Shown here piece after piece: positions 23,364 through 37,094 of a stretch of DNA of 64,000 nt; within the stretch, counting starts at the first letter, position 1; each line of letters opens with the position of its first letter. Source of the DNA: an uncultured Dehalococcoidia bacterium (GTDB lineage: Bacteria > Chloroflexota > Dehalococcoidia > Lucifugimonadales > GCA-2712585). Location: the NCBI GenBank assembly GCA_951812825.1, contig OX638324.1, positions 1,487,141 to 1,551,140 on the forward strand. The letters run 5' to 3'. The notes beneath the pieces are model-generated. The model did no database searches. It was given only the letters and a program-made list of their open reading frames with translations, and had not been told where the DNA came from. The translations under genes and the position numbers were made by a program.

Positions 23364-23408
23364 AGCCACCATAGCTACCCCACAGCATTGGCCCGCGGGA
23401 GGCGCAGC

Positions 23409-24827
23409 ATGAACCAGAGCAGAGTGGATACCATCATTGGCGGCGGAAAAGTTGTCACCTCCTCAGAGGTGTTCGACGCTGCAATTGCCATCGTCGGCGA
23501 GCAGATCGCCGCCATCGGGCCCGAACATCTGCTGCCGCCCGCCGACCGTTACATCGACGCCACGGGCAAGTACGTCCTGCCCGGCCTTATCGACGCCCAC
23601 GTGCATCTGGACAGAGTGGACACCTACGAGCTTGGCTCCATCGCCGCCGCTCATTCGGGCATAACCACCCTCATCCCCTTCGGCACATACGACGACGCTG
23701 CGGAGCAGTCGCTGCCGGAAGCCATCAACAACCACCGGGAGGAGATAGACAGCACGGCGGTGCTGGACTTCGGCTTTCACTTCATCCTAAAGAACCGTCC
23801 GTGGGTGCTCAAGGGACTGCCGCAGGCTCTGGAGATGGGCGTCACCTCCTACAAGATGTTCATGACGTACAAGAAGGGTCTCACCAGCATGTGCGACGAC
23901 GACTACATCTGCGAGGCCATGTCGATGGTATCGAAGGGGGGTGGCGTGCTACAGCTCCACTGCGAGTCGGGCAGCATCATCGACTACCTGGAAGACAAGC
24001 TGATTGAAGACGGCTGCGTCCATCCGACGGACTTTCCCGGGGCCTGTCCCGACTGGGCGGAGGAGGAGGCAATCAACCGGGCCGTGAAGATGGGCGCCGT
24101 GACGAACTGTCCTATCTATGTGGTGCATCTGAGCAGCCAGGTGGGGCTGGAGCGGATCAAGCGCGCCCAGGCGGAGGGGCAGCGGGTGTGGACGGAGACC
24201 TGTCCCCAGTATCTGCTGCTCTCCGACGAGGAGATGTCGCGGGTGGGCCCACTGGCGAAGATTGGACCGCCCCTGCGTCCGAAGGACGGGCCGGACCAGC
24301 CCGCCATGTGGAAGGGGTTGGAGCTGGGCTACATCTCCACCATCGGCAGCGACCACTCACCGAGCCCGCCCGGGTCCAAGCAGCCGGGCTGGAACAACAT
24401 CTTCATCGGGCCGGACGGGACGCCCATCCCCTTCGGCTCTCCGGGGGTGGAGACGGCGGCGCCACTGGCATACAGCGAGGGCGTGGCAAAGCGGGGGATG
24501 CCGATCACCTGGCTGGCGCGGGTCATGTCGGAGAATCCGGCCCGGATCTTCGGTCTGTACCCGCGGAAAGGCTCTCTGCAGGTGGGCACCGACGCGGACC
24601 TGACCATCATCGACCCGCAGGACAGCATGGTAATCCGGGCCAAGGACCACCACGGGAACACGGGCTACAGCCTGTTCGAGGGGTGGGAGTTGAGCGGCAA
24701 GCCATATATGAGCATGGTACGCGGACAGGTGCTGTTGAACCGGGGCATTCTGGAGCAGAAGCCGGGCTACGGAAGCTTCCTGGAGTGCGGAGGCCCGCGA
24801 GCGCCCCTGGGCGGCCCGGTGCACTAG
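23409..24827 (+). CDS. Dihydropyrimidinase/D-hydantoinase family amidohydrolase
   Basis: A 472-residue cyclic amidohydrolase. The metal ligands are complete: DAHVHLD (HxH), VTSYKMFMTYKKG (carboxylated Lys), LQLHCESG (His), YVVHLSSQ (His) and IGSDHSP (Asp). It should open cyclic amides such as dihydropyrimidines, hydantoins or allantoin. ATG 23409 is preferred to TTG 23388 because GGGAGGCG lies just upstream. It is followed by a GatC/AtzG-like small protein and an amidase, forming a three-gene unit that could open a ring and then hydrolyse the linear amide. The exact ring substrate is not predictable. Confidence 0.9.
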   Translation: MNQSRVDTIIGGGKVVTSSEVFDAAIAIVGEQIAAIGPEHLLPPADRYIDATGKYVLPGLIDAHVHLDRVDTYELGSIAAAHSGITTLIPFGTYDDAAEQSLPEAINNHREEIDSTAVLDFGFHFILKNRPWVLKGLPQALEMGVTSYKMFMTYKKGLTSMCDDDYICEAMSMVSKGGGVLQLHCESGSIIDYLEDKLIEDGCVHPTDFPGACPDWAEEEAINRAVKMGAVTNCPIYVVHLSSQVGLERIKRAQAEGQRVWTETCPQYLLLSDEEMSRVGPLAKIGPPLRPKDGPDQPAMWKGLELGYISTIGSDHSPSPPGSKQPGWNNIFIGPDGTPIPFGSPGVETAAPLAYSEGVAKRGMPITWLARVMSENPARIFGLYPRKGSLQVGTDADLTIIDPQDSMVIRAKDHHGNTGYSLFEGWELSGKPYMSMVRGQVLLNRGILEQKPGYGSFLECGGPRAPLGGPVH

Positions 24828-25180: not shown

Positions 25181-25205
25181 ACAGTTTGCCAGGGGGGTTT
25201 TGGTC

Positions 25206-26651
25206 ATGAAGGATGATTTTGTAGTTACGCATTCGGCGTCGGAGATGGCGGCGCTGATCGCCGCCAAAGAGGTCTCACCGGTGGAGATAGTCTCGCAGTA
25301 TCTGGACCGGATCGAGAGGCTTGATTCAAGGCTCTTCTCTTACATCACCGTCTGCGAGGACGAGGCTATGTCGGAGGCCCGCCGGTTGGAGACTTTGGCC
25401 ATGCGGGGAGAGATTGTCGGCCCGTTGCACGGACTGCCGCTGGCAGTGAAGGACCAGTTCCACACGGAGGGCGTGCTGACCACCGCAGCATCCACCATAA
25501 TGAAGGACCACGTGTCGGTGGAAGACGCAACGACGATAGCCAGGGCCAAGGGCGCAGGGGCCATCCTGCTGGGCAAGTTGAACATGACGGAATTTGCCGC
25601 CGGCATGGGGGACAGGTACAAGCACCGGGGAATTACCCGCAATCCGTGGGACCTGGAGCGGGACGCCGGGGGTTCCAGCAGCGGATCGGGGGCGGCCATT
25701 GCCGCCTCTCTTTGCGCTATCTCCCTGGGCGAGGACACGGGCGGGTCTATCCGGGGGCCATCTTCCCTGAACGGCGTCACCGGCATCCGGCCCACGTGGG
25801 GGCTGGTGAGCCGCTATGGAATCGTTCCCTTCTCCTGGTCTCTGGACACCGGCGGGCCCATGTGCCGTACAGCGGAGGACGCGGGGATGGTTCTGGGGGC
25901 CATCGCGGGATTCGACACGAAGGACCCCCTGACCTCTCACCGGGCAGTTCCCAACTATCTGGAGGAGATGGGCGATGGACTGAAGGGGCTGCGCATTGGC
26001 ATACTGGAGGAGCTGACGGCGGCGGACTACGTGAAGCCCGAGGTCCATCGGGCTACTGCGGCTGCGGTATCGGTCCTTGGCGAACTGGGGGCCGACGTGG
26101 AAGAAGTTTCTCTGCCTCTGCTGGAGCACATGGGAGCGGTGGGAGCCATCCTTGCGGAGAGCGACGGCGCAACTTACCACAGGCCGTGGCTTGACGAACG
26201 ACCCCAGGACTACGGCCCGACGATTCGGCGTCGCCTGCTGGCGGCGAGTCTGCTGCCCGGCCAGGTGGTGCATAAGGCCGCAAGGATGAGGGGCCTCTTC
26301 CGTCGCGAGTGGCTGGGCCTGTTTGAGAAGTACGACGCAGTTATTTGTCCCACCACCCCAAGCGTCGCCGGGAAGATCAGCTACGTGGGAGACGTGGAGA
26401 CCAGGGAGCGGGCAGAGCAGCTTTTCGGCAATCGGAAGTCCGCAACGTTCCCTGCGGCGCTTGCAGGCACGCCGGCCATGTCCATGCCCTGCGGGTTCAG
26501 TGAGGACGGGATGCCCATTGGTCTGCAGGTGATGGCAGGCCACTTTCAGGAATCGACCATAGTGCGGGTGGGGTATCACTACCAGCGGCAAACCGGGTGG
26601 CATAAGAGAAGGCCAAAGGACGAGCCGGATAAAGTACAGAGCAGGGACTGA
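25206..26651 (+). CDS. Amidase signature family enzyme
   Basis: A 481-residue amidase with the Ser-cisSer-Lys triad: Lys82 in LAVKDQFHTEG, the GGSSSGSG loop (cis-Ser about residue 158-159) and nucleophile Ser181 in GEDTGGSIRGPS. The C-terminal PAALAGTPAMSMPCGF is typical. It hydrolyses an amide, biuret/allophanate-like or aryl-amide substrate; with the preceding hydantoinase and GatC/AtzG-like genes a linear ureido- or carbamoyl-amide product is plausible. ATG 25206 is the best start, with GGGGGG 10 nt upstream; TTG 25200 adds two residues. GatA function is unlikely because gatB is absent. Confidence 0.9.
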   Translation: MKDDFVVTHSASEMAALIAAKEVSPVEIVSQYLDRIERLDSRLFSYITVCEDEAMSEARRLETLAMRGEIVGPLHGLPLAVKDQFHTEGVLTTAASTIMKDHVSVEDATTIARAKGAGAILLGKLNMTEFAAGMGDRYKHRGITRNPWDLERDAGGSSSGSGAAIAASLCAISLGEDTGGSIRGPSSLNGVTGIRPTWGLVSRYGIVPFSWSLDTGGPMCRTAEDAGMVLGAIAGFDTKDPLTSHRAVPNYLEEMGDGLKGLRIGILEELTAADYVKPEVHRATAAAVSVLGELGADVEEVSLPLLEHMGAVGAILAESDGATYHRPWLDERPQDYGPTIRRRLLAASLLPGQVVHKAARMRGLFRREWLGLFEKYDAVICPTTPSVAGKISYVGDVETRERAEQLFGNRKSATFPAALAGTPAMSMPCGFSEDGMPIGLQVMAGHFQESTIVRVGYHYQRQTGWHKRRPKDEPDKVQSRD

Positions 26652-26729: not shown

Positions 26730-27938
26730 TTGGACTCTGGCGATCTCGCTTGGATACTGACAGCAACAGTACTCGTTCTGTTCATGACCCTCCCTGGGCT
26801 GGCCATGTATTATTCTGGACAGGTCCGCTCGCAGTCTGCCCTGTCCATGATGCTGCAATGTGTATCTATTGCGGCCCTGGCCAGTCTCATCTGGCTCGTC
26901 ATCGGGTATAGTCTATCCTTCGGTGAGAGTTCGGGTGGAATCATCGGCAACCTGAAGCATCTCTTCTTTGCGGAGATTTCGGGAGGCGGTAGACCAGCCT
27001 TAATTGTGTTCGCCATGTTCCAGATGACCTTCGCCGTCATCACCCCAGCCCTCATTGCGGGGGCGTATGCAGAACGGATCAAGTTTCCTGCGATGCTCCT
27101 CTTCAGCGGCTTGTGGGTAGTGCTTGTGTACTCTCCCATCTGCCACTGGGTATGGGGAGGCGGGTGGCTGAGCGACATGAACGTGATCGACTATGCGGGC
27201 GGCCTGGTGATCCTCACCGCCGCTGGCACGTCGGCACTGGTGGCAGCCAGCTTCCTGGGCAAGCGGCGGGGCTTCCCGACTCAGATCAGGCCAGCCCACA
27301 GCCCGGGCCTGGTGGCCGCGGGGGCGGCCATACTCTGGGTGGGCTGGCTGGGCCTGGCCGGAGGACGCGCCTACGGAGCAGGGGACACGGCGGGGTATGC
27401 CATAGCCGCTACTCACTTTTCGGCGGCGGCAGCGGCCCTGGTCTGGGTTTCCCTGGGGTATTTCGGCCGTCGCCAGTTCTCCCTGGTGGGCGCCGCCACC
27501 GGCGCTGTTGCCGGTCTTGCTGCGGCAACCCCGGCCGCGGGATTCGTGGGTCCCGTTGGGGGACTTGTCATTGGCATAGTCGCCGGCATACTCTGCTACG
27601 CAACCGTGGGCTTAGTGAAGAGAAGGCTGAACATAGACGATTCCCTGAACGTTTTCGCCATTTTCGGCATGGGCGGCATCGTCGGCACCTTGCTCGTCTC
27701 CGTCTTTGCCCTTGACTCCCTGGGCGGCTTCGGGTTCACCGATACCAGTCGCAGTTTCGGACCCCAATTGGGCGTGCAGGCGATAGGCATTCTGGCCGTG
27801 ATGGGCTGGTCTCTGGTGGCCACTGCCGCCATCATGTTCGTCACATCAAAGCTTACCGGCGGCCTGCGGATAGACCAAGAGGACGAGCTACTTGGGCTGG
27901 ACCTGTCCGCTCAGGGGGAGCAAGCCTACGACCTATAG
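26730..27938 (+). CDS. Amt-family membrane protein lacking the twin pore histidines
   Basis: A 402-residue protein with about 11 membrane segments, clearly Amt/Rh: LPGLAMYYSGQVRSQ, FQMTFAVITPALIAGAYAER (pore Phe pair at 97 and 101), SPICHWVWGGGWL (Trp142) and DYAGG (Asp154, equivalent to AmtB Asp160). However the AmtB His168 position is Leu162 (GGLVILTAAG) and the His318 position is Phe312 (NVFAIFGMGG). The AmtB Ser219 position aligns with Arg213. Canonical ammonium conduction relies on the histidine pair, so transport may be absent or altered; a receptor role is conceivable. The start is TTG 26730 with GAGGAGG 6 nt upstream. The signalling operon begins 292 nt downstream on the same strand. 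Confidence 0.85.
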   Translation: MDSGDLAWILTATVLVLFMTLPGLAMYYSGQVRSQSALSMMLQCVSIAALASLIWLVIGYSLSFGESSGGIIGNLKHLFFAEISGGGRPALIVFAMFQMTFAVITPALIAGAYAERIKFPAMLLFSGLWVVLVYSPICHWVWGGGWLSDMNVIDYAGGLVILTAAGTSALVAASFLGKRRGFPTQIRPAHSPGLVAAGAAILWVGWLGLAGGRAYGAGDTAGYAIAATHFSAAAAALVWVSLGYFGRRQFSLVGAATGAVAGLAAATPAAGFVGPVGGLVIGIVAGILCYATVGLVKRRLNIDDSLNVFAIFGMGGIVGTLLVSVFALDSLGGFGFTDTSRSFGPQLGVQAIGILAVMGWSLVATAAIMFVTSKLTGGLRIDQEDELLGLDLSAQGEQAYDL

Positions 27939-28230
27939 GGAAAATACTGCGCGAAATGCCCGTGAAGGCGGCAAGATTCAGGCACCGCGAAAAGGAGCTT
28001 ATTCCCCAGACACCGGCTAAGTCGGAATCCGGCAGACTAACCGATTCGGAAGCTGCGCAGCGCGTTGCCGCCAAGGCGGGAAGCGGTTTTCACTTTACCT
28101 CAAAAGGTGATAAGATTGCCGCTGCATCAGTGATCTTGAGACTGCCAACCATCATGTTATCACTAAAACAACCATGCCAGGTGGCGAGTTGTGCAGCCCA
28201 CCGAACGCAACAACTTAGGAGGTAGACTCA

Positions 28231-28566
28231 ATGGCAGTTAACAGCGACCGCCAGAATGGTACTCTAATAGCACGAGCCGACGGCCGTATAGATGGCGCCA
28301 ACGCCCGAGAGTTCCAGGTGGCCTTGGAGTCCGCCATAGACCCCACCGACAGCAACGTGGTCCTGGACCTAGAGAACCTGTCATATATCAGCAGTGCCGG
28401 TCTCCGGGTAATTCTCATGACCGCCAAGACCCTCCAGCGACAGAAGGCGAAGTTTGCTATCTGCTCTCTTTCACCCTCCATTAAAGAAGTTTTTCAGATA
28501 AGCGGTTTCGACAGAATCATCCCGATCCATTCAACTCTGGACGACGCTCTCTCCGCCCTCAAATAA
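28231..28566 (+). CDS. STAS-domain anti-sigma factor antagonist
   Basis: A 111-residue SpoIIAA/RsbV-like protein. The fold pattern is complete: TLIARADGRIDGANAREFQV, VVLDLENLSYISSAG, LRVILMTAKTLQRQ and the terminal helix DALSAL. The phosphoacceptor loop YISSAG offers Ser54 and Ser55. In partner switching the unphosphorylated form binds and removes an RsbW-type kinase from its target; phosphorylation by that kinase inactivates it and a PP2C phosphatase restores it. All of those partners follow directly. TTAGGAGG lies 8 nt before the ATG. A possible -10 (TAAGAT near 28112) is upstream in the 292-nt leader, but its -35 is weak. Confidence 0.9.
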   Translation: MAVNSDRQNGTLIARADGRIDGANAREFQVALESAIDPTDSNVVLDLENLSYISSAGLRVILMTAKTLQRQKAKFAICSLSPSIKEVFQISGFDRIIPIHSTLDDALSALK

Positions 28567-28652
28567 AGAGACTATTCTGCCGCTCCAACCACAGGGCGGC
28601 ACAGGCGTAGATATTAGACAGCCATGCGCGGCAGCTTCCGAGGAGAGGATTG

Positions 28653-29825
28653 GTGAGAGACAAACCATACAAGATTCTGGTAGTAGACGATGAAGTAGAT
28701 CTGGAGCCGCTGATGCTTCAGCGGATGCGCCGAAAGATAAGATCCGGGACATACGATTTTGTCTTTGCACACAACGGGCTAGAGGCCTTGGAAGTGCTCA
28801 ACCGAGACAAAGAAATAGACATGGTGCTCTCCGACATCAACATGCCGCAGATGGACGGCTTGGCGTTGCTGGAGCAGATACCGAAGGTGGACCCGAACCT
28901 TCGCGCCGTAATAATTTCCGCCTACGGGGACATGAAGAATATCCGCACAGCTATGAACCGGGGGGCCTTTGACTTTGTAACCAAGCCCCTGGACTTCAAG
29001 GACTTGCAGGTCACCATCGAGCGCACCCTGCAACATCTGGCCGAGTGGAAGGAAGCCCTGCAGTCGCGGGACAAGCTGGTGGCCCTTCAGAACGAGTTGG
29101 ACGTGGCCAGCCAGATGCAGCGATCCATTCTTCCCAGCAGGTTCCCTTCCGGGGACAACTATGAAGTTTACGGGGACATGGAGGCAGCTAGAAACGTGGG
29201 CGGCGACTTCTTCGACGTCCTCAACCTGCAGGACGATAAGGTCGGGCTGGCGGTAGCAGACGTTTCCGACAAGGGGGTCCCCGCCGCTCTATTCATGATG
29301 TCCAGCCGGACTCTGCTGAAGGGTTCCGCCATCGGCTATATGGACGACGTGGCGGGCCTGATGACCGAGCTGAACAACCTGCTTGTGGAGGACAACGAAG
29401 CCTCCATGTTCGTTACCCTCTTCTACGGCGTCTTCAACCCGTATACAGGGTCTTTCGTCTATTCCAACGGGGGCCACAACACTCCCGTCATCTATCACGC
29501 AGACGGCTCGACAACGTTGCTGCCTCTAACCAACGGCATTGCCCTGGCAGTGGTGCCGGACATGAGTTTTGAAATGCATTCCGTAACCCTGGCGCCGGGA
29601 GACACCCTTGTGCTCTATACGGACGGGGTGACCGAGGCAATGAACGAGCACAAAGAAGAATTTGAGACCTCGCGGCTTCTCAAGGTATTCGAAGGGTCCC
29701 CACCCAGCGGCGCCCAGCAGGCCAACGAGGCCGTATTCCAGGCCGTGCGCGACTTTGTTGGCGATACCCCTCAATCCGACGACATAACTTGCCTGAGTCT
29801 TCACTACGAGGGGCCATCCTCGTGA
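28653..29825 (+). CDS. Response regulator with PP2C (SpoIIE/RsbU-like) phosphatase output
   Basis: A ~390-residue two-domain protein. Residues 1-120 are a receiver: ILVVDDEVD acidic pocket, LSDINMPQMDG with phosphoacceptor Asp61, and FVTKPLDF with the conserved Lys. A short coiled linker (RDKLVALQNELDVASQMQ) leads to a PP2C/SpoIIE phosphatase with GGDFFDV (about residue 183), VADVSDKGVPAALFM and SDDITCLSL near the end. Phosphorylation by a histidine kinase should control dephosphorylation of the STAS protein encoded upstream. GTG 28653 has AGGAG at a 7-nt distance and is preferred over TTG 28650. Its stop overlaps the next start (GTGA), indicating translational coupling. Confidence 0.92.
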   Translation: MRDKPYKILVVDDEVDLEPLMLQRMRRKIRSGTYDFVFAHNGLEALEVLNRDKEIDMVLSDINMPQMDGLALLEQIPKVDPNLRAVIISAYGDMKNIRTAMNRGAFDFVTKPLDFKDLQVTIERTLQHLAEWKEALQSRDKLVALQNELDVASQMQRSILPSRFPSGDNYEVYGDMEAARNVGGDFFDVLNLQDDKVGLAVADVSDKGVPAALFMMSSRTLLKGSAIGYMDDVAGLMTELNNLLVEDNEASMFVTLFYGVFNPYTGSFVYSNGGHNTPVIYHADGSTTLLPLTNGIALAVVPDMSFEMHSVTLAPGDTLVLYTDGVTEAMNEHKEEFETSRLLKVFEGSPPSGAQQANEAVFQAVRDFVGDTPQSDDITCLSLHYEGPSS

Positions 29826-30241
29826 GCGCTCAGTTGATCCTCAGGGTGGAACCGGACGATTTCGATCTTGATGCCATATTCGCACAGATAGAGTCCCTGG
29901 CGGAGCAAGAAGCGTGGGCCTCCGACTTAACCTTTCGTGTGAACCTAGCGCTGGAGGAGCTGACGCTTAACACGATGACCCATGGTCGCCACGACGAATT
30001 GGAGGCCATCGTAATTATGCTCGACTCCAAAGAAGATCTGCTGACCATTGAGATGACGGACAACGGTCTCCCCTTCAATCCTCTGGAAGAGGCACCGGAC
30101 CCCGGGGTGGAGGCAGCCCTGGAGGACCGGAACATCGGAGGATTGGGGGTTTACCTGGTTCACACTCTGATGGACGAAATGCAATACAAACGGGCGGCGG
30201 GCAAGAATTGCCTGACCCTAAAAGCCCGTAGAGCGGAATGA
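29822..30241 (+). CDS. RsbW-like serine kinase/anti-sigma ATPase
   Basis: A ~139-residue HATPase_c_2 domain protein: VNLALEELTLNTMTHG forms the N box (Glu45, Asn50), MTDNGLPFNP the ATP-lid Asp box and GGLGVYLVHTLMDEM the G2 box. It resembles the anti-sigma kinases RsbW/SpoIIAB but also the switch ATPases that act on other targets. Its partners would be the STAS protein and an unknown client such as a sigma factor, which is not encoded in the window. The GTG start overlaps the upstream TGA, and the ATGA at its end overlaps the next gene. Confidence 0.88.
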   Translation: MSAQLILRVEPDDFDLDAIFAQIESLAEQEAWASDLTFRVNLALEELTLNTMTHGRHDELEAIVIMLDSKEDLLTIEMTDNGLPFNPLEEAPDPGVEAALEDRNIGGLGVYLVHTLMDEMQYKRAAGKNCLTLKARRAE

Positions 30242-31530
30242 AGCAAAAATCGCGACTCCTCTTTGGAAGAATCAGCCCCCTTACCCTCGGCATCAGCTTT
30301 CTGATACTTCTCTCCGCGGGCATTGTTAGCTGCTCCGGCGATAGCGAAACAGCAACCCCGACCCCAACCCCCACCAGGACGCAAGTCGAGACGGCCACTC
30401 CCGTTGCCACGCCGGCAACCAATTCCTTTGCCGGCATTTACGACGATCGAATAGTTTTCGGGCAGTCCGCGGCTCTGGACGGCCCGGCCCAGGAGTTGGG
30501 GAGAAATATGCAACGGGGCATCAAGGCGGCCTTCCTCGAGAGGAACGAGCAGGGAGGCGTCCACGGTCGACAACTTGACCTGGTGTCGCTGGACGACAGG
30601 TATGAGCCGGAGCTTGCCGCTACCAACACACAGAAACTCATCCAGGAAGAGAACGTGTTCGCCCTCATTGGGGCCGTGGGGACGCCCACCTCCCGGTCTG
30701 CCACACCCGTGGCCGCCGAAGCCAACGTGCCCTACGTTGCGCCATTTACGGGAGCCGCCTTCCTTCGCGACCCCAGCTGGACGAATATCCTCAACCTGCG
30801 CGCCTCCTACTATCAGGAAACGGAGGAGATGGTGGCCCGGATGACCACGGATCTGGGCTTTGAGCGGATCGCCGTGCTGTACCAGGACGACTCTTTCGGT
30901 CAGGCGGGCTTGCAAGGAGCGCTGCTGGCGCTGGAACGCCGCGACATGAATCCTGCGGCGGTTGGGCTCTATCCCCGCAACACCCTGGCCGTAAAAACTG
31001 CGCTTCTGGATTTGCGGAAGGCGTCTCCTGAGGGCATTATCATCATCGGGGCCTACCAGCCCGTCGGGACATTCATCGCATGGGCAAAGAACGTGGGAAT
31101 GCACGACGTGGTGTTCATGACCGTTTCCTTTGTGGGCAGCAATGCCCTGGCAGAGCAGCTAGGGCCCCGAGGCCATGGCGTCTTCGTAACCCAGGTGGTG
31201 CCCTTCCCCACGGATGACTCCGTTCCCATAGTCAACTCTTACCTGGAAGCTCTCGCCAACTACGATCCCGAAGCGGTTCCCGGCTTTGTTTCCCTGGAAG
31301 GCTACATGGCGGGACGGCTTGCCATCGCGAGCCTGGAAAGGTGCGGTCGAGGGGTCAGCAGGGAGTGTTTCCTGGACATACTGAATCATACGGAAACCCT
31401 GGAGATAGACGAATTTGAATTGCGATACGGGCCCAACGACAACCAGGGTTCGGATAAGGTATTCTTAACGGTAATAGGCCGCTTTGGCGACTACTTTCCC
31501 GCCGGAAGTCTCAAGGACGTCCCGCCATGA
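30238..31530 (+). CDS. LivK-like ligand-binding lipoprotein in a signalling operon
   Basis: A 430-residue periplasmic binding protein of the branched-chain amino acid (Peripla_BP_6) class. The signal ends in AGIVSC with lipidated Cys32, followed by a Thr-Pro linker (TPTPTPTRTQ) and the domain start IVFGQSAALDGPAQELGRNM. The first-lobe segment GVHGRQLDLVSLDD and ALIGAVGTPTSRSATPVA are characteristic. No permease or ATPase genes are adjacent; the gene is locked by 4-nt overlaps between an RsbW-like and a histidine kinase gene. This suggests it presents a ligand to the kinase, as TorT does for TorS, rather than serving transport. The ligand could be an amino acid, amide or urea-like compound; that part is inference. 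Confidence 0.88.
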   Translation: MKQKSRLLFGRISPLTLGISFLILLSAGIVSCSGDSETATPTPTPTRTQVETATPVATPATNSFAGIYDDRIVFGQSAALDGPAQELGRNMQRGIKAAFLERNEQGGVHGRQLDLVSLDDRYEPELAATNTQKLIQEENVFALIGAVGTPTSRSATPVAAEANVPYVAPFTGAAFLRDPSWTNILNLRASYYQETEEMVARMTTDLGFERIAVLYQDDSFGQAGLQGALLALERRDMNPAAVGLYPRNTLAVKTALLDLRKASPEGIIIIGAYQPVGTFIAWAKNVGMHDVVFMTVSFVGSNALAEQLGPRGHGVFVTQVVPFPTDDSVPIVNSYLEALANYDPEAVPGFVSLEGYMAGRLAIASLERCGRGVSRECFLDILNHTETLEIDEFELRYGPNDNQGSDKVFLTVIGRFGDYFPAGSLKDVPP

Positions 31531-33710
31531 GAGAACAATTACGCCGAGTTCTAAGGTTGCGCTCCCGCATCTCAACCCAGATTTACGTGGGCATCGGCGG
31601 CGCAGTGTTGCTTACCGTGGCGGCCAGTCTGGTGGGGTGGTTTTCTTTCAACCGCGTGGATGATGCGGTGAGCCACGTAAACGAGGGCAGCGTACCGGAA
31701 CTCACCGCATCCTTCGGCGTTGCCCAGTTCAGCGGCAACCTGGTAGCGGCGGGTCCCCGGCTCATCTCTGCCACGTCGGAGGAGGAATTCCAGCAGGTGG
31801 TCGCCAGCATTGAGCAGGACCAGGCATCCTTCGAGGCGACGTTGGCCACCCTGGAGGAGCAGGGAACTGAACCCGAGCGGTTCCTCCGAATTCGCTCCTA
31901 CGCGGATACGCTTACTTCCAATAACAAGGCCATCCAGGACGAAATGTCACGCTATTTCTGGCTCGCAGAAGGTAGAGACCTGATCCGCGAAGAACTGGTA
32001 ACTCTTCGTGATGCCCTGGAGAACCAACTCATCCCGGCCATAGACGACCAGCTTTTCTATACCGTTACCGGCTACCGGGTGCTGGGACAAGCGCCCGCCG
32101 ACAGGGAAGAACACTTTACAGAGGAGGAATTCTCCAACTACCGGGTCCTTTCCGAGCTGCTGTCCGACTCCAACATAGGCACGGAACTGCTTGCCAACGC
32201 CTTCACCGTGTCTGATCCCTCCCTTCTTGAGCCTCTGAGGGAGCGTTTCGAAGCTGTCAACAGCCGCATAGAGCGCAACCTGATTCTGATAGAAAACACT
32301 TCGTATTTCCATGACCTTCAGCCAAGTTTCGAACTCCTCTTCCAAATCGGAATGGGGGCCAGCAGCGTCTTCAACCTCCTGGAGGATGAATTGCGGCTTT
32401 TGCAGCGTCAGAACTCCCTGATCGCCCTAAACCAGGAAATCGCCATCGACCTGGTGGAGGAGGTGGACGGGCTGGTTGAGTCCTCCCGGAACAGCTCTCA
32501 GGTGGCGACGAGCGCCTCTTCCCAGGCAATTCTTACCGGCCGCTCCCTGCTCCTCACCATCAGCGCCATAAGCGTCGGCGGCGCCGTTCTCCTCGCGTGG
32601 CTCTTCGTCGGCCGCGTTCTGCTGCGCCGGCTCCAGCGTCTCTCCAACAGGATGGTGCACATGGCCAGCGGAGACCTGGAATCCGAGGTGGAGATAGACG
32701 GCAAGGACGAAATTGCGGAGATGGCCTCAGCCCTGGAGGTGTTCCGTCGACACGCCCTGGAGGTGCAGCGGCTGAACCTGGTAGAAAAGCTGGCAGAAGA
32801 GCTGCAGGGCAAGAACGAACAGCTGGAGCTGGTGCTGGACGACCTGCAGAAGGCACAAACCCAGATAGTGATGCGGGAGAAGCTGGCAGCTCTGGGTGAG
32901 CTGACCGCCGGCGTGGCCCACGAGATACGCAATCCGCTGAACTTCGTGAAGAACTTCTCAGAGGCTTCGGAGGAGCTGCTGGAGGAGCTTAAGGAAACGC
33001 TGGAGGAAAGCGAGGACGGCAACCTGGACAAGGAGCAGCTGTCCCTGATTCAGGAGATATCCGAAGACCTCAACGGCAACCTGGAGCGCATACGTAATCA
33101 CGGCAATCGCGCCAATCGCATTGTGGAAAGCATGCTTTCAATGGGGCGTGGCACGGAGGGCCGGCAGATGGTCAACCTCAACGACCTGATTGACGAGCAC
33201 GCCCGTCTAGCCTATCACAGCGTCCGGGCTACGGATCCCAACTTTCAGCTGGACCTGCGGCAGGAGCTTGACCCCAACATGGGAGAGGTGGAAGTTGTGG
33301 CCCAGGACATTGGCCGAGTTTTTCTCAACATGGTAAACAACGCCTGCTACGCTGCCGACGAAAAGCGCCGCAAACTTGAGGAAGAGGGGAGTCCCGAGCC
33401 CTTCCTCCCCACTATTGAAGTCACCAGCCTCCGCACGGAGGAGACGGCGGTGGTGACCGTGAGAGACAACGGAACCGGCATGCCAGATGAGGTAATTGAA
33501 AAGATCTTCAATCCCTTCTTCACCACAAAGCCGACGGACCAGGGAACAGGTTTGGGCTTGGCCATCTCCAACGATATAGTTCGCAGCCACGGCGGTTCCA
33601 TCCAGGTGGAGTCCAAGGATGGCGAATATACCAAGATGACCGTGGAGCTGCCCCTTTCGGCGACGTCAGCCGAGGTCGAAGAAGTCCCCGAGGCGGAGGA
33701 AGTTTCCTAA
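31527..33710 (+). CDS. TorS-like membrane sensor histidine kinase
   Basis: A 727-residue kinase. Membrane segments lie near residues 20-42 and 333-358 and enclose a ~290-residue extracytoplasmic helical sensor region resembling the TorS type. A HAMP domain follows (LLRRLQRLSNRMVHMASGDL and DEIAEMASALEVFRRHALE), then a coiled coil, the H box LTAGVAHEIRNPLNF with His465, N box FLNMVNNACYAAD, VRDNGTGMP and the lid KIFNPFFTTK...GTGLGLAIS. It lacks its own receiver, so the REC-PP2C protein three genes upstream is the natural partner. It overlaps the binding-lipoprotein gene by ATGA. The C-terminus ends in an acidic Glu-rich tail. Confidence 0.93.
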   Translation: MREQLRRVLRLRSRISTQIYVGIGGAVLLTVAASLVGWFSFNRVDDAVSHVNEGSVPELTASFGVAQFSGNLVAAGPRLISATSEEEFQQVVASIEQDQASFEATLATLEEQGTEPERFLRIRSYADTLTSNNKAIQDEMSRYFWLAEGRDLIREELVTLRDALENQLIPAIDDQLFYTVTGYRVLGQAPADREEHFTEEEFSNYRVLSELLSDSNIGTELLANAFTVSDPSLLEPLRERFEAVNSRIERNLILIENTSYFHDLQPSFELLFQIGMGASSVFNLLEDELRLLQRQNSLIALNQEIAIDLVEEVDGLVESSRNSSQVATSASSQAILTGRSLLLTISAISVGGAVLLAWLFVGRVLLRRLQRLSNRMVHMASGDLESEVEIDGKDEIAEMASALEVFRRHALEVQRLNLVEKLAEELQGKNEQLELVLDDLQKAQTQIVMREKLAALGELTAGVAHEIRNPLNFVKNFSEASEELLEELKETLEESEDGNLDKEQLSLIQEISEDLNGNLERIRNHGNRANRIVESMLSMGRGTEGRQMVNLNDLIDEHARLAYHSVRATDPNFQLDLRQELDPNMGEVEVVAQDIGRVFLNMVNNACYAADEKRRKLEEEGSPEPFLPTIEVTSLRTEETAVVTVRDNGTGMPDEVIEKIFNPFFTTKPTDQGTGLGLAISNDIVRSHGGSIQVESKDGEYTKMTVELPLSATSAEVEEVPEAEEVS

Positions 33711-33817: not shown

Positions 33818-35251
33818 TTGGACTTTAAGAGTTACGACATACACCCGGACTTCTACGACGAGATGTTCCTGAACGAGGAGAATCCAAGGGAGCACTACCG
33901 TCAGCTATACGAGACCCTTCTGGAATTCTCCGCAGAGCAGATGGTCGGCATTCAGGAGCAGGTTACGCGGTCATTCTATAACGAAGGAATCTCCTTTACC
34001 GTCTACGGCGACGAGGAGGGCACGGAACGGATCATTCCCATCGACTGCGTACCCAGGGTGGTGTCCAGCGAAGATTGGGCATTCCTGGAGAAGGGGCTGG
34101 AGCAGAGACTTAAAGCCCTGAACAGATTCCTGGACGACGTTTATAACGACGGGCACATTATTGAAGACGGCGTGATACCGGTGGACGTGGTCATGGAGTG
34201 CCCGCAGTACCGAACGGAAATGCGCGGCTTCTCGCCACTCCACGGAACGTGGGTGGCTATCTGCGGAACGGACCTGGTTCGAACGAACGACGGCTTTCGC
34301 GTGCTGGAGGACAATCTGCGCGTACCCTCCGGCGTGTCCTACATGGTCGCCAACCGGAAGGCTATCAAGGCCACCATGCGCCGCCTGTACCGCAGCTCCC
34401 GGGTTGAAGAGGTGGAGCACTACGGACGAATCTTGCAGCAAACACTGAGGGAGCTAGCTCCCGCCGGACGGTCCGAACCCACCATGGCTCTCCTTACGCC
34501 CGGCGTTTTCAACTCCGCCTTCTACGAGCACATGTTTCTGGCCCGCGAGATTGGCGCAGAACTGGTGGAGGGCCAGGACCTTATTGTGAACGACGGTTTC
34601 GTATATATGCGCACCAGCAAGGGACTGCGCCGGGTGGACGTGATCTACCGCAGAGTGGACGACGATTTCATTGATCCCCTGGTGTTCCGCCCCGATTCCC
34701 TGCTGGGCGTTCCCGGCCTGCTTCACGCCTATCAGCAGGGGAACGTATCCCTTGCCAACTCCCCCGGCACGGGTGTGGCCGATGACAAGAGCGTTTACGC
34801 CTACGTGCCGGACATGATCCGATATTATTTGAGCGAGGAACCTATTCTCTCCAACGTGGAAACATACCTGTGCCGGCGCCCTACCGACCTGGAGTATACG
34901 CTGGACAATCTGCAAAACCTGGTGGTCAAGCGGGTGGGCGAATCGGGCGGCTACGGAATGCTCATCGGCCCCCACTCGACGGCCCAGGAGCGGGATGAGT
35001 ATGCCGATCAGGTCCGGGCCAATCCGGCGGATTTCATCTCCCAGCCGGTGCTGGACCTGTCGCGGTCTCCCTGTCTTATCGACGGGACCTTCGAGCCGAG
35101 GCACGTGGACCTGCGGCCCTTCATTCTTCACGGACAAGAAACACGCATTGTACCCGGAGCCTTCTGCCGCGTAGCCCTCAAGCGGGGCAGCCTGGTGGTG
35201 AATTCCAGCCAGGGCGGCGGCGGCAAGGACCTGTGGGTACTGAGAGGCTGA
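33818..35251 (+). CDS. Circularly permuted type 2 ATP-grasp protein
   Basis: A 477-residue member of the CP_ATPgrasp family (PF04174/PF14403): YDEMFLNEENPREHYRQLY, IIPIDCVPRVVSSEDW and FRVLEDNLRVPSGVSYMVAN, then LTPGVFNSAFYEHMFLAREI and the ATP-binding part NLVVKRVGESGGYGMLIGP. It is expected to form an amide or peptide-like bond at ATP cost, but no substrate is established for the family. It starts at TTG 33818 with only a weak ribosome-binding site. It is followed by alpha-E and transglutaminase genes within 4 nt each, the conserved three-gene arrangement found in many bacteria. Confidence 0.92.
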   Translation: MDFKSYDIHPDFYDEMFLNEENPREHYRQLYETLLEFSAEQMVGIQEQVTRSFYNEGISFTVYGDEEGTERIIPIDCVPRVVSSEDWAFLEKGLEQRLKALNRFLDDVYNDGHIIEDGVIPVDVVMECPQYRTEMRGFSPLHGTWVAICGTDLVRTNDGFRVLEDNLRVPSGVSYMVANRKAIKATMRRLYRSSRVEEVEHYGRILQQTLRELAPAGRSEPTMALLTPGVFNSAFYEHMFLAREIGAELVEGQDLIVNDGFVYMRTSKGLRRVDVIYRRVDDDFIDPLVFRPDSLLGVPGLLHAYQQGNVSLANSPGTGVADDKSVYAYVPDMIRYYLSEEPILSNVETYLCRRPTDLEYTLDNLQNLVVKRVGESGGYGMLIGPHSTAQERDEYADQVRANPADFISQPVLDLSRSPCLIDGTFEPRHVDLRPFILHGQETRIVPGAFCRVALKRGSLVVNSSQGGGGKDLWVLRG

Positions 35252-35255
35252 TTTG

Positions 35256-36224
35256 ATGCTAGCACGCAGCGCCCAAGGCCTGTACTGGATGGGAAGATAC
35301 CTGGAGCGAACGGAGCACCTGTGCCGCCTATTGCGCTCCCAGACCGCGGCCCTTGTAGACCGGCCCATCGAGGAGATTCACTCCGGTTGGAACCGCATCT
35401 ACAACAGCATGAACCGCATGCCCCCAGTGGGGGGTCTGGAGCTGATCGACAGCGACGAGTTCACCCTGGCCGACTCCTATACCCTCACCGACGACCTGAC
35501 TTTTGAGCGCAGCAACCCGGATTCGGTGTGGAGCTGCCTGTCCTACGGCAGGGAAAATGCCCGGCAGATGCGCCACTACATAAGCGGAGAGATGTGGACG
35601 CACCTGAATCTTTCCTACCTGCGAATGCAAGAAATTGACATCCTTTCCATCTGGCGTTCTTCACCCGAGAATTTCTTCTCACAGACGGCCGCGGAGATGG
35701 ACACCCTTGTGGGCATAGCCACCGCCACCATGTATCGAGACGAGGGCTGGCACTTCATGCAGCTGGGGCGTTTCATCGAAGGAGCGCAGCTGGCTAATTC
35801 GCTGCTGCTGGGCCAACTGCGCCACGAACCCAACACCAGGGCCGTTCCCGAGGCTGACTGGATGGCCCTGCTGCGCGATTACAACGCGGTGGAGACCTAT
35901 AACCGACGCTACGGCATAGAGGTGCATCCGGACCACGTGTTGGACCTTATTGCCACGGACGAATACCTGCCGCGGTCCCTGTGTAGATCTCTGGACAGGG
36001 CCGCACGCGAATTGAACGCCCTGGGCCCCGGCCCCAACGAAAAGTCCAGCGCGGCGGCCCAACGTCTCTCCGGCAGGGTGCGCGCGTTGATTCACTATGA
36101 CTGGCCAGACAACGACGACCATAAACGGATGCTGCGTCAGGCAAGTGATTACTGCCGTCAGCTGCATCTTCTGATTTCCGAGACCTATTTCAACTATCCC
36201 GTGGAAGCCCTGGCTGCAAGCTGA
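35256..36224 (+). CDS. Alpha-E domain protein
   Basis: A 322-residue all-helical protein of the alpha-E family (PF04168): MLARSAQGLYWMGRYLERTE is the diagnostic N-terminus and ENARQMRHYISGEMWTHLN the central motif; MYRDEGWHFMQLGRFIEGA follows. The domain always co-occurs with the permuted ATP-grasp protein and sometimes is fused to it; biochemical function is unknown. The ATG is 4 nt after the ATP-grasp stop. A TTG one codon upstream (35253) is a possible alternative. Confidence 0.92.
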   Translation: MLARSAQGLYWMGRYLERTEHLCRLLRSQTAALVDRPIEEIHSGWNRIYNSMNRMPPVGGLELIDSDEFTLADSYTLTDDLTFERSNPDSVWSCLSYGRENARQMRHYISGEMWTHLNLSYLRMQEIDILSIWRSSPENFFSQTAAEMDTLVGIATATMYRDEGWHFMQLGRFIEGAQLANSLLLGQLRHEPNTRAVPEADWMALLRDYNAVETYNRRYGIEVHPDHVLDLIATDEYLPRSLCRSLDRAARELNALGPGPNEKSSAAAQRLSGRVRALIHYDWPDNDDHKRMLRQASDYCRQLHLLISETYFNYPVEALAAS

Positions 36225-36227
36225 GCC

Positions 36228-37094
36228 ATGGCTGGCGTCCGCCGCCTTGAGATTCAACATTCTTCCCGTTACCTGTACAACGGGCCGGTCAGCCGCAGCG
36301 TGATGCGCCTATGTCTGAAGCCGCTGGACGATGACAAACAGCGCCTTCTCAGGTTCAACGTTGAAACTAATCCGCCCGCTCCACTAAGCCAGGAAACAGA
36401 CTCCTTCGGCAATTCCAGGCACGTCCTGACGCTGAACAGCGAGCATCATTCTCTGAAGATTTCTTCGGACTCGGCAGTGGAAACGTCTCCAACGCCTACG
36501 CTCCCATCGTCCCTCCCAAAGGACGCCTGGGAGGAGATTCGCTCGTCGCGGAACTCCTTCAGGCTGTGGAGTTTTACGAACCCCAGCGCGTATGCCCGGC
36601 CCTCCGACGCTCTGCAAGCCTACATGGAGGAGATGGACCTCAGGCCGGGAGACGATCCGTTGGAATCGGTGCTGCGACTCTCCGACTCCATACACCGCTC
36701 TTTCCAGTTCGTGCCAGGCAGCACATCAGCCATCTCACCTATTGACCATATCCTGAAGACCCGGCAGGGGGTCTGCCAGGACTACGCCCACGTGATGATT
36801 GCAATCGCCCGCCTATGGGGAGTGCCGGCCCGGTATATTTCCGGATATCTCTATGCTGGGTCCTGGAAGGAAGTGAGCGTCTCTTACGCCTCTCACGCCT
36901 GGGTGGAATGCCTGCTGCCCGGGCTGGATTGGGTGGGCTTTGACCCCACAAACGAGGGGCTGGCTGGAGAGCGTCACGTACGCCTGGCTGTGGGCCTGGA
37001 CTACAAGGATGTCTCACCTACCCAGGGGATCATACACGGACTCGCCCAATCCACTTTGGAGGTGGAGGTGCGAGTGGGCCCCGTGGATAGCTAG
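36228..37094 (+). CDS. Transglutaminase-like cysteine peptidase family protein
   Basis: A 288-residue protein with the bacterial transglutaminase-like N-terminal region (LEIQHSSRYLYNGPVSRSV) and core: Cys183 in GVCQDYAHVMI, His in SHAWVECLLPG and Asp in WVGFDPTNEG complete the triad. Members act as peptidases or amide-forming enzymes; in this operon type they are thought to work with ATP-grasp and alpha-E proteins on an unidentified peptide-like product. The start ATG overlaps nothing but is 3 nt after the alpha-E stop, so the three proteins are probably made together. No export signal is visible. Confidence 0.92.
   Translation: MAGVRRLEIQHSSRYLYNGPVSRSVMRLCLKPLDDDKQRLLRFNVETNPPAPLSQETDSFGNSRHVLTLNSEHHSLKISSDSAVETSPTPTLPSSLPKDAWEEIRSSRNSFRLWSFTNPSAYARPSDALQAYMEEMDLRPGDDPLESVLRLSDSIHRSFQFVPGSTSAISPIDHILKTRQGVCQDYAHVMIAIARLWGVPARYISGYLYAGSWKEVSVSYASHAWVECLLPGLDWVGFDPTNEGLAGERHVRLAVGLDYKDVSPTQGIIHGLAQSTLEVEVRVGPVDS

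Follow-up and report, generated by a model that had tools for sequence, protein, structure and literature searches.

An intact Amt-family protein with both twin histidines replaced, from a clade linked to a partner-switching signalling cassette, in an uncultured Dehalococcoidia bacterium

The twin histidines in the pore of Amt proteins, H168 and H318 in Escherichia coli AmtB, are regarded as nearly universal, and the only natural variation described at these positions in the literature consulted is the glutamate that takes the place of the first histidine in fungal Mep proteins (PMC3647058, PMC7447429). The AmtB double mutant H168A/H318A binds ammonium and does not transport it, and the triple mutant S219A/H168A/H318A gives no ammonium-induced current (PMC7447429). 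Methylamine transport failed in all but one (H168E) of 14 engineered AmtB variants tested (PMC7447429, PMC3647058). Yeast that relies on double-histidine variants of Mep2 fails to grow on low ammonium, yet K+ passes through these variants (PMC9040831). A natural, intact Amt without either histidine would depart from this near-universal pattern. Here we describe one, encoded by an uncultured Dehalococcoidia bacterium (GenBank assembly GCA_951812825.1, contig OX638324.1, positions 1,487,141 to 1,551,140). We refer to this 64,000-nucleotide stretch of DNA as "the window" and to the protein as the "window Amt".

The window Amt is encoded at 26730-27938 on the forward strand by an open frame of 402 codons that begins with TTG and contains no internal stop; the GC3 of the gene is similar to that of its neighbours. 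Several lines of evidence place the protein, over its full length, in the Amt/Mep/Rh family by both sequence and fold. The Pfam domain Ammonium_transp spans residues 7-400 of the 402 (E 3.4e-99) and is the only domain that Pfam finds, with no signalling domain fused to it. The NCBIfam model TIGR00836 (amt) scores above the family cut-off. An AlphaFold model built with 56 sequences (mean pLDDT 91.9, pTM 0.92) superposes on AmtB in the AmtB-GlnK structure 2ns1 with a Z score of 64 and an rmsd of 1.4 A over 397 residues, at 41% identity. The conserved GLDxxxxGExxYD tail is present, and the top sequence match in the PDB is the AmtB mutant H318F (2npg).

Both twin histidines of this protein are replaced. 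In a HMMER alignment to AmtB chains, which is ungapped around each site in question, L162 falls at H168, F312 at H318, R213 at S219, W142 at W148 and D154 at D160. Chance alignment as the source of the histidine replacements is ruled out by the ungapped match together with the structural superposition. At the S1 site (F107, W148 and S219 in AmtB) F101 and W142 are kept and R213 stands for the serine; in the Phe gate (F107 and F215) L209 stands for the second phenylalanine. The replacements, in AmtB numbering with the window residue in parentheses, are F31Y (Y27), V167I (I161), H168L (L162), F215L (L209), N216A (A210), S219R (R213), D313N (N307) and H318F (F312), and the residues F103, F107, W148, D160, W212 and V314 are kept. 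R213 is the sole new charge at a conserved pore position. A search across the window Amt for a compensating histidine in the pore found none: its four histidines are H77, at a variable position, and H139, H190 and H229, which are common to most homologues.

The first-pass annotation, made from the DNA letters and their open reading frames, had put Leu162 and Phe312 at the two histidine positions and Arg213 at Ser219, and the alignment, its ungapped flanks and the superposition bear this out; no histidine elsewhere substitutes for the lost pair. Trp142 and Asp154 had rightly been listed as kept, but the Phe gate pair listed with them is only half retained, with F107 preserved as F101 and F215 lost. 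The changes at N216, D313, F31 and V167 had been missed, and the pore is more extreme than was claimed.

To place these replacements, the window Amt was compared with 129 other aligned Amts, namely relatives from the same order, the clade mates described below, those of the 80 nearest public loci, and AmtB. All 129 carry histidine at both twin-histidine positions, in agreement with the earlier statement that canonical Amts keep the pair, and N216 is also invariant among them; leucine at F215 and methionine at S219 occur in two clade mates alone. Both histidines, S219, N216 and F215 are retained at 80 of the 80 nearest loci, which come from a GTDB-based collection, and in the order relatives likewise. 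A DNA-level search for D[FY]AGGxV with a hydrophobic residue at the His168 position gave matches in 12 genomes out of 400 from the phylum and in 10 out of 250 from the order, and the window gene was the sole Amt among them, in a scan that is insensitive to Amts with a different motif, a non-hydrophobic replacement or a change at His318 alone. For comparison, the histidine form of the same motif matches 154 of the 400 phylum genomes. Of the 96 columns with conservation of at least 95%, 21 are pore positions and 75 are not; the window Amt deviates at 7 of the former and 5 of the latter (Fisher p = 0.004). The pore loss is real and rare, and it occurs in an intact Amt whose clade is linked to a signalling cassette.

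Judging from the published mutants, a protein whose lumen holds Leu and Phe and whose S1 site holds Arg would not conduct ammonium, and the window Amt is thus most likely non-conducting. The first-pass suggestion of a non-conducting or altered protein therefore fares well as far as loss of normal conduction goes, by extension from those AmtB mutants. If the protein has a ligand, it would presumably no longer be plain ammonium bound at S1.

When 250 genomes from the order were searched, eight more Amts of the window type were found, which together with the window Amt and an orthologue from the same genus (genome G001) make a clade of ten. The clade has support of 100/99 and is nested among alphaproteobacterial Amts. 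Both histidines are kept in nine of the ten members, including the G001 orthologue, which is 59% identical to the window Amt and has a fully canonical pore. A tree with the added clade members places the window Amt elsewhere than beside the G001 orthologue, though a sister pairing of the two is not rejected (p-AU 0.12), and long-branch pull is possible.

Pore drift extends across the clade, G001 excepted. F31 is Val, Leu or Tyr in five members, V167 is Leu or Ile in seven members, the window Amt among them, and the members from genomes G561 and G562 (loci L162 and L161) combine Q104H, V167L, F215L and S219M with intact twin histidines, a second kind of altered pore. Where the other Amts are 95% conserved, deviations in the clade amount to 16.2% of cases at pore positions (14.3% when the window Amt is left out) versus 0.2% for the other Amts, and to 7.5% versus 0.9% at non-pore positions, an excess of about 70-fold and 8-fold, respectively, in which the values of 0.2% and 0.9% are low partly by construction, the columns having been chosen on those Amts. 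For this reason the scoring was also applied to four comparison groups, with columns whose definition left these groups out; their ratios of pore to non-pore deviation ranged from 0 to 0.34, a bias opposite to that of the clade (2.17), with pore positions listed from general knowledge of AmtB structures and partly matched by the cited papers. The excess change in the clade is specific to the pore.

All ten clade Amts lie just upstream of a STAS gene on the same strand, and no clade Amt without STAS occurs among the ten members, so that the linkage is exclusive. In the window the STAS-domain protein (28231-28566, +) is anti-anti-sigma or RsbV-like and carries an SSAG phosphoacceptor motif. It is followed by a fusion of a response-regulator receiver with a PP2C/SpoIIE phosphatase (RsbU-like; 28650-29825, +), in which the receiver Asp and the PP2C motifs are intact, and by an RsbW-like HATPase_c_2 switch kinase (29789-30241, +) with intact N and G box motifs. 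The STAS protein with its phosphoacceptor serine, the PP2C phosphatase and the HATPase kinase of a partner-switching module are thus all present and intact. Next come a periplasmic binding lipoprotein of the Peripla_BP_6 family (branched-chain amino acid, amide or urea type; 30238-31530, +) and a membrane sensor histidine kinase with HAMP, HisKA and HATPase_c domains and intact catalytic motifs (31527-33710, +). Circularly permuted ATP-grasp and Alpha-E proteins (33818-36224, +) follow the kinase, as they do in part of the cassettes; with transglutaminase-like genes, this group extends over 33818-37094 (+).

Upstream of the Amt stand an amidase of an ammonia-releasing family (25200-26651, +) and a dihydropyrimidinase/hydantoinase-type amidohydrolase (23388-24827, +), both conserved in G001. 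The window genome (G000, 2.47 Mb) has 23 amidase-family matches in all, which fits life on amides. The gene order in G001 is hydantoinase, amidase, carbonic-anhydrase-like lipoprotein, Amt, PII, STAS, RsbU-like, RsbW-like, binding protein, kinase, ATP-grasp and Alpha-E. The third of these, a lipoprotein-like carbonic anhydrase of eukaryotic type (PF00194; L131:11441-12325, -), is absent from the window. No Rfam-known RNA or riboswitch was found near the operon at Rfam thresholds, and scanning the region of the Amt for promoters yielded no signal that stood out clearly from chance.

The larger cassette is found on the same contig as the Amt in nine of the ten clade members; in the tenth (G574) the Amt is accompanied by STAS only, and an RsbU copy lies on another contig. 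A search of the order found the five-gene cassette of STAS, RsbU, RsbW, binding protein and kinase at 52 loci, 18 of them with the ATP-grasp gene, and therefore the cassette exists without the clade Amt; most cassettes have no Amt of this type. Cassettes with an Amt do not come together in the RsbU tree. This indicates that loss or movement of the Amt happened more than once, although its place stayed constant, and that the linkage is not simple joint inheritance. The first-pass annotation had noted that signalling genes directly follow the Amt and had raised the question of whether histidine-less homologues always precede them. The neighbourhood it noted is shared by the whole clade, but histidine loss is rejected as the basis of the link, because nine of the ten linked Amts keep the pair. 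Furthermore, the G001 orthologue has a clean canonical pore and the same neighbours, which implies that a role in signalling does not depend on loss of the pore.

The PII (GlnK-like) gene that stands next to the Amt in G001, as in an AmtB-GlnK pair, is missing from the window. In its place is a gap of 292 bases (27939-28230), in which tblastn and six-frame translation revealed no PII remnant and where an 89-residue open frame (27956-28225) has no Pfam match; no PII gene was found in the window or in the whole genome. PII is absent from the Amt site in nine of the ten clade members. The PII of G001 (L131:8988-9281, -) has a weak score and, instead of the usual TGKIGDGK B-loop, the sequence TGAAGALLF, and may itself be altered. 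The window genome also encodes a second Amt (G000:C1:269413-270639), which keeps both histidines. Its closest NCBIfam model is that of the marine subtype, TIGR03644, with a score just under the cut-off, and its nearest PDB entries are the receptor-type Sd-Amt1 and Ks-Amt5. Genes similar to it lie between the ATP-grasp and Alpha-E genes of the cassette in G027, G016 and G479. Marine-subtype Amts resembling TIGR03644 and nearest in the PDB to Amt receptors were seen at L135:7254-8681 (+) and L137:13194-14660 (+).

The window Amt has evolved about 3.6-4 times faster than its G001 orthologue, with branch lengths of 0.72-1.08 versus 0.20-0.25. The same ratio is 1.0-1.7 for RsbU, the binding protein, the kinase, ATP-grasp and Alpha-E, and STAS (2.3) and RsbW (3.4) are both fast, the RsbW-like kinase (29789-30241, +) moving at nearly the speed of the Amt. 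Between the window and G001 Amts the differences by codon position number 132, 72 and 230 of 401. A codon model rejects omega = 1 on the window Amt branch (LRT 35), and neutral evolution is thereby rejected over the branch as a whole; synonymous sites are saturated, and the branch omega estimates, being unreliable, were used for this rejection only. The implication is that selection acted over most of the branch, with recent relaxation possible.

The best single reading of these observations, at chances that we would call about even, is a regulatory role. An ordinary AmtB-GlnK pair, akin to alphaproteobacterial ones, would have come to sit upstream of a partner-switching cassette in which the periplasmic binding protein and histidine kinase may control the receiver-phosphatase, and the latter may act on the STAS/RsbW switch. 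Within the clade the Amt would have turned into an accessory of this cassette; its pore drifted, and nine of the ten members have no PII at the site. Drift would have gone furthest in the window Amt, where not only the two histidines but also the serine of the binding site, a phenylalanine of the gate, Asn216 and Asp313 are replaced. That it is a full-length, folded, maintained and probably non-conducting Amt, from a lineage that became an accessory of the signalling cassette, is a proposition that could fall either way. We infer that in signalling it would act as a receptor or co-receptor in the membrane, or as a scaffold. In favour of a regulatory role, the signalling neighbours retain every motif residue checked and the genome has a second, histidine-bearing Amt; the rapid evolution relative to G001 speaks against it, as it also fits loss of function in progress. 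More tentatively, the unfused Amts of the clade may be the membrane input of STAS/RsbW partner-switching and, in one lineage, the pore may have been fully dismantled to leave an Amt-fold regulator that does not handle ammonium, its ligand having changed or its role being purely structural.

The chief alternative is relaxed decay, which we consider a serious though distinctly less probable account. It holds that the old AmtB constraint disappeared once another Amt was present and PII was lost, that pore residues were the first to change, and that the gene is becoming a pseudogene with no present function. The long branch is what decay predicts, as are the absence of PII from the window genome and the presence there of a second Amt, and G001 alone among the clade genomes has just one Amt, PII at the Amt site and an unchanged pore. 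Nonetheless, the frame is intact over 402 codons with a GC3 like that of its neighbours, omega = 1 is rejected for the branch, the fold and the conserved tail are kept, and the changes are concentrated among the conserved sites of the pore. Pore drift is seen, moreover, in clade mates whose genes are intact.

The annotation had also raised the possibility of an ammonium receptor, which in the manner of Ks-Amt5 would bind ammonium at the outer site, transport none and signal to the neighbouring kinase. The clade is indeed linked to signalling genes, and the Tyr at AmtB position 31 is like Y30 of Ks-Amt5, one of the bulky residues that close the pore of that protein. For the window Amt, however, the idea is much weakened and we regard it as improbable. 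An Arg in place of S219 should make the binding of cations at S1 weaker or impossible, and by the evidence of the AmtB mutants this change and the loss of the twin histidines together argue against S1 ammonium binding (PMC7447429). The histidine pair and serine are kept in Ks-Amt5 and Sd-Amt1, and the Phe gate in Ks-Amt5 (PMC5764959). The kinase in the window is unfused, with the binding-protein gene as its likely partner, and most cassettes do without a clade-type Amt.

Equally doubtful is a pore of changed specificity, with a hydrophobic lumen and an Arg at its mouth, that passes another solute such as leaking cations or a small neutral or anionic compound produced in the neighbouring amidase and hydantoinase reactions: K+ passes single-histidine AmtB variants and double-histidine Mep2 variants (PMC7447429, PMC9040831), R213 adds the one new charge at a conserved pore position, and amides and cyclic ureides are the substrates of the enzymes encoded upstream, but AmtB H168A/H318A carried no K+ current (PMC7447429), side chains as large as Leu and Phe would be expected to constrict the lumen, not to open it, and no family of such a transporter was found.

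Among the known systems nearest to the window Amt, AmtB (1u77, 2ns1) and its twin-histidine mutants (2npc, 2npd, 2npe, 2npg, 2npk) have the same full-length fold, but in the window Amt H168, H318, S219, F215, N216 and D313 are replaced together and naturally, and no gene for a GlnK partner was found in the genome. Ks-Amt5, the ammonium sensor histidine kinase of Kuenenia (6eu6; PMC5764959), shares the Amt fold (Z 59), the signalling context and the Tyr at the F31 position; it forms one chain with its kinase and retains the twin histidines, the Trp and Ser of S1 and the Phe gate (PMC5764959), whereas the window Amt is a separate protein without the histidine pair, the S1 serine or a full gate. 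The Sd-Amt1 receptor of Shewanella denitrificans (8qj3, 8qj4, 8qpf) also shares the fold (Z 58), but both histidines and the serine of GFNGGS are kept in the alignment, its chains are 644-661 residues long, and it is nearer to the second Amt of the window genome than to the window Amt. Both receptors carry extra length in the same chain, which the window Amt does not. The fungal Mep2 transceptors are transport-type Amts with a signalling role, and Mep1 and Mep3, with Glu at the first histidine, offer twin-histidine variation; unlike the window Amt, Mep2 retains both histidines, and variants of it with a single histidine no longer signal (PMC9040831). The debated question of whether Amt signalling needs transport becomes testable with the window Amt and its close relatives, whose intermediate pores in the same neighbourhood form an evolutionary series for how a transporter may become a regulator. 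A literature search did not turn up Amt input into partner-switching signalling, to which the gene linkage points as a possibility. RsbV/RsbU/RsbW modules have the same order of STAS protein, PP2C phosphatase and HATPase switch kinase, with motifs intact; what sets the window cassette apart from them is the receiver domain fused to its phosphatase and the linkage of this phosphatase with a histidine kinase, a binding protein and, in the clade, an Amt.
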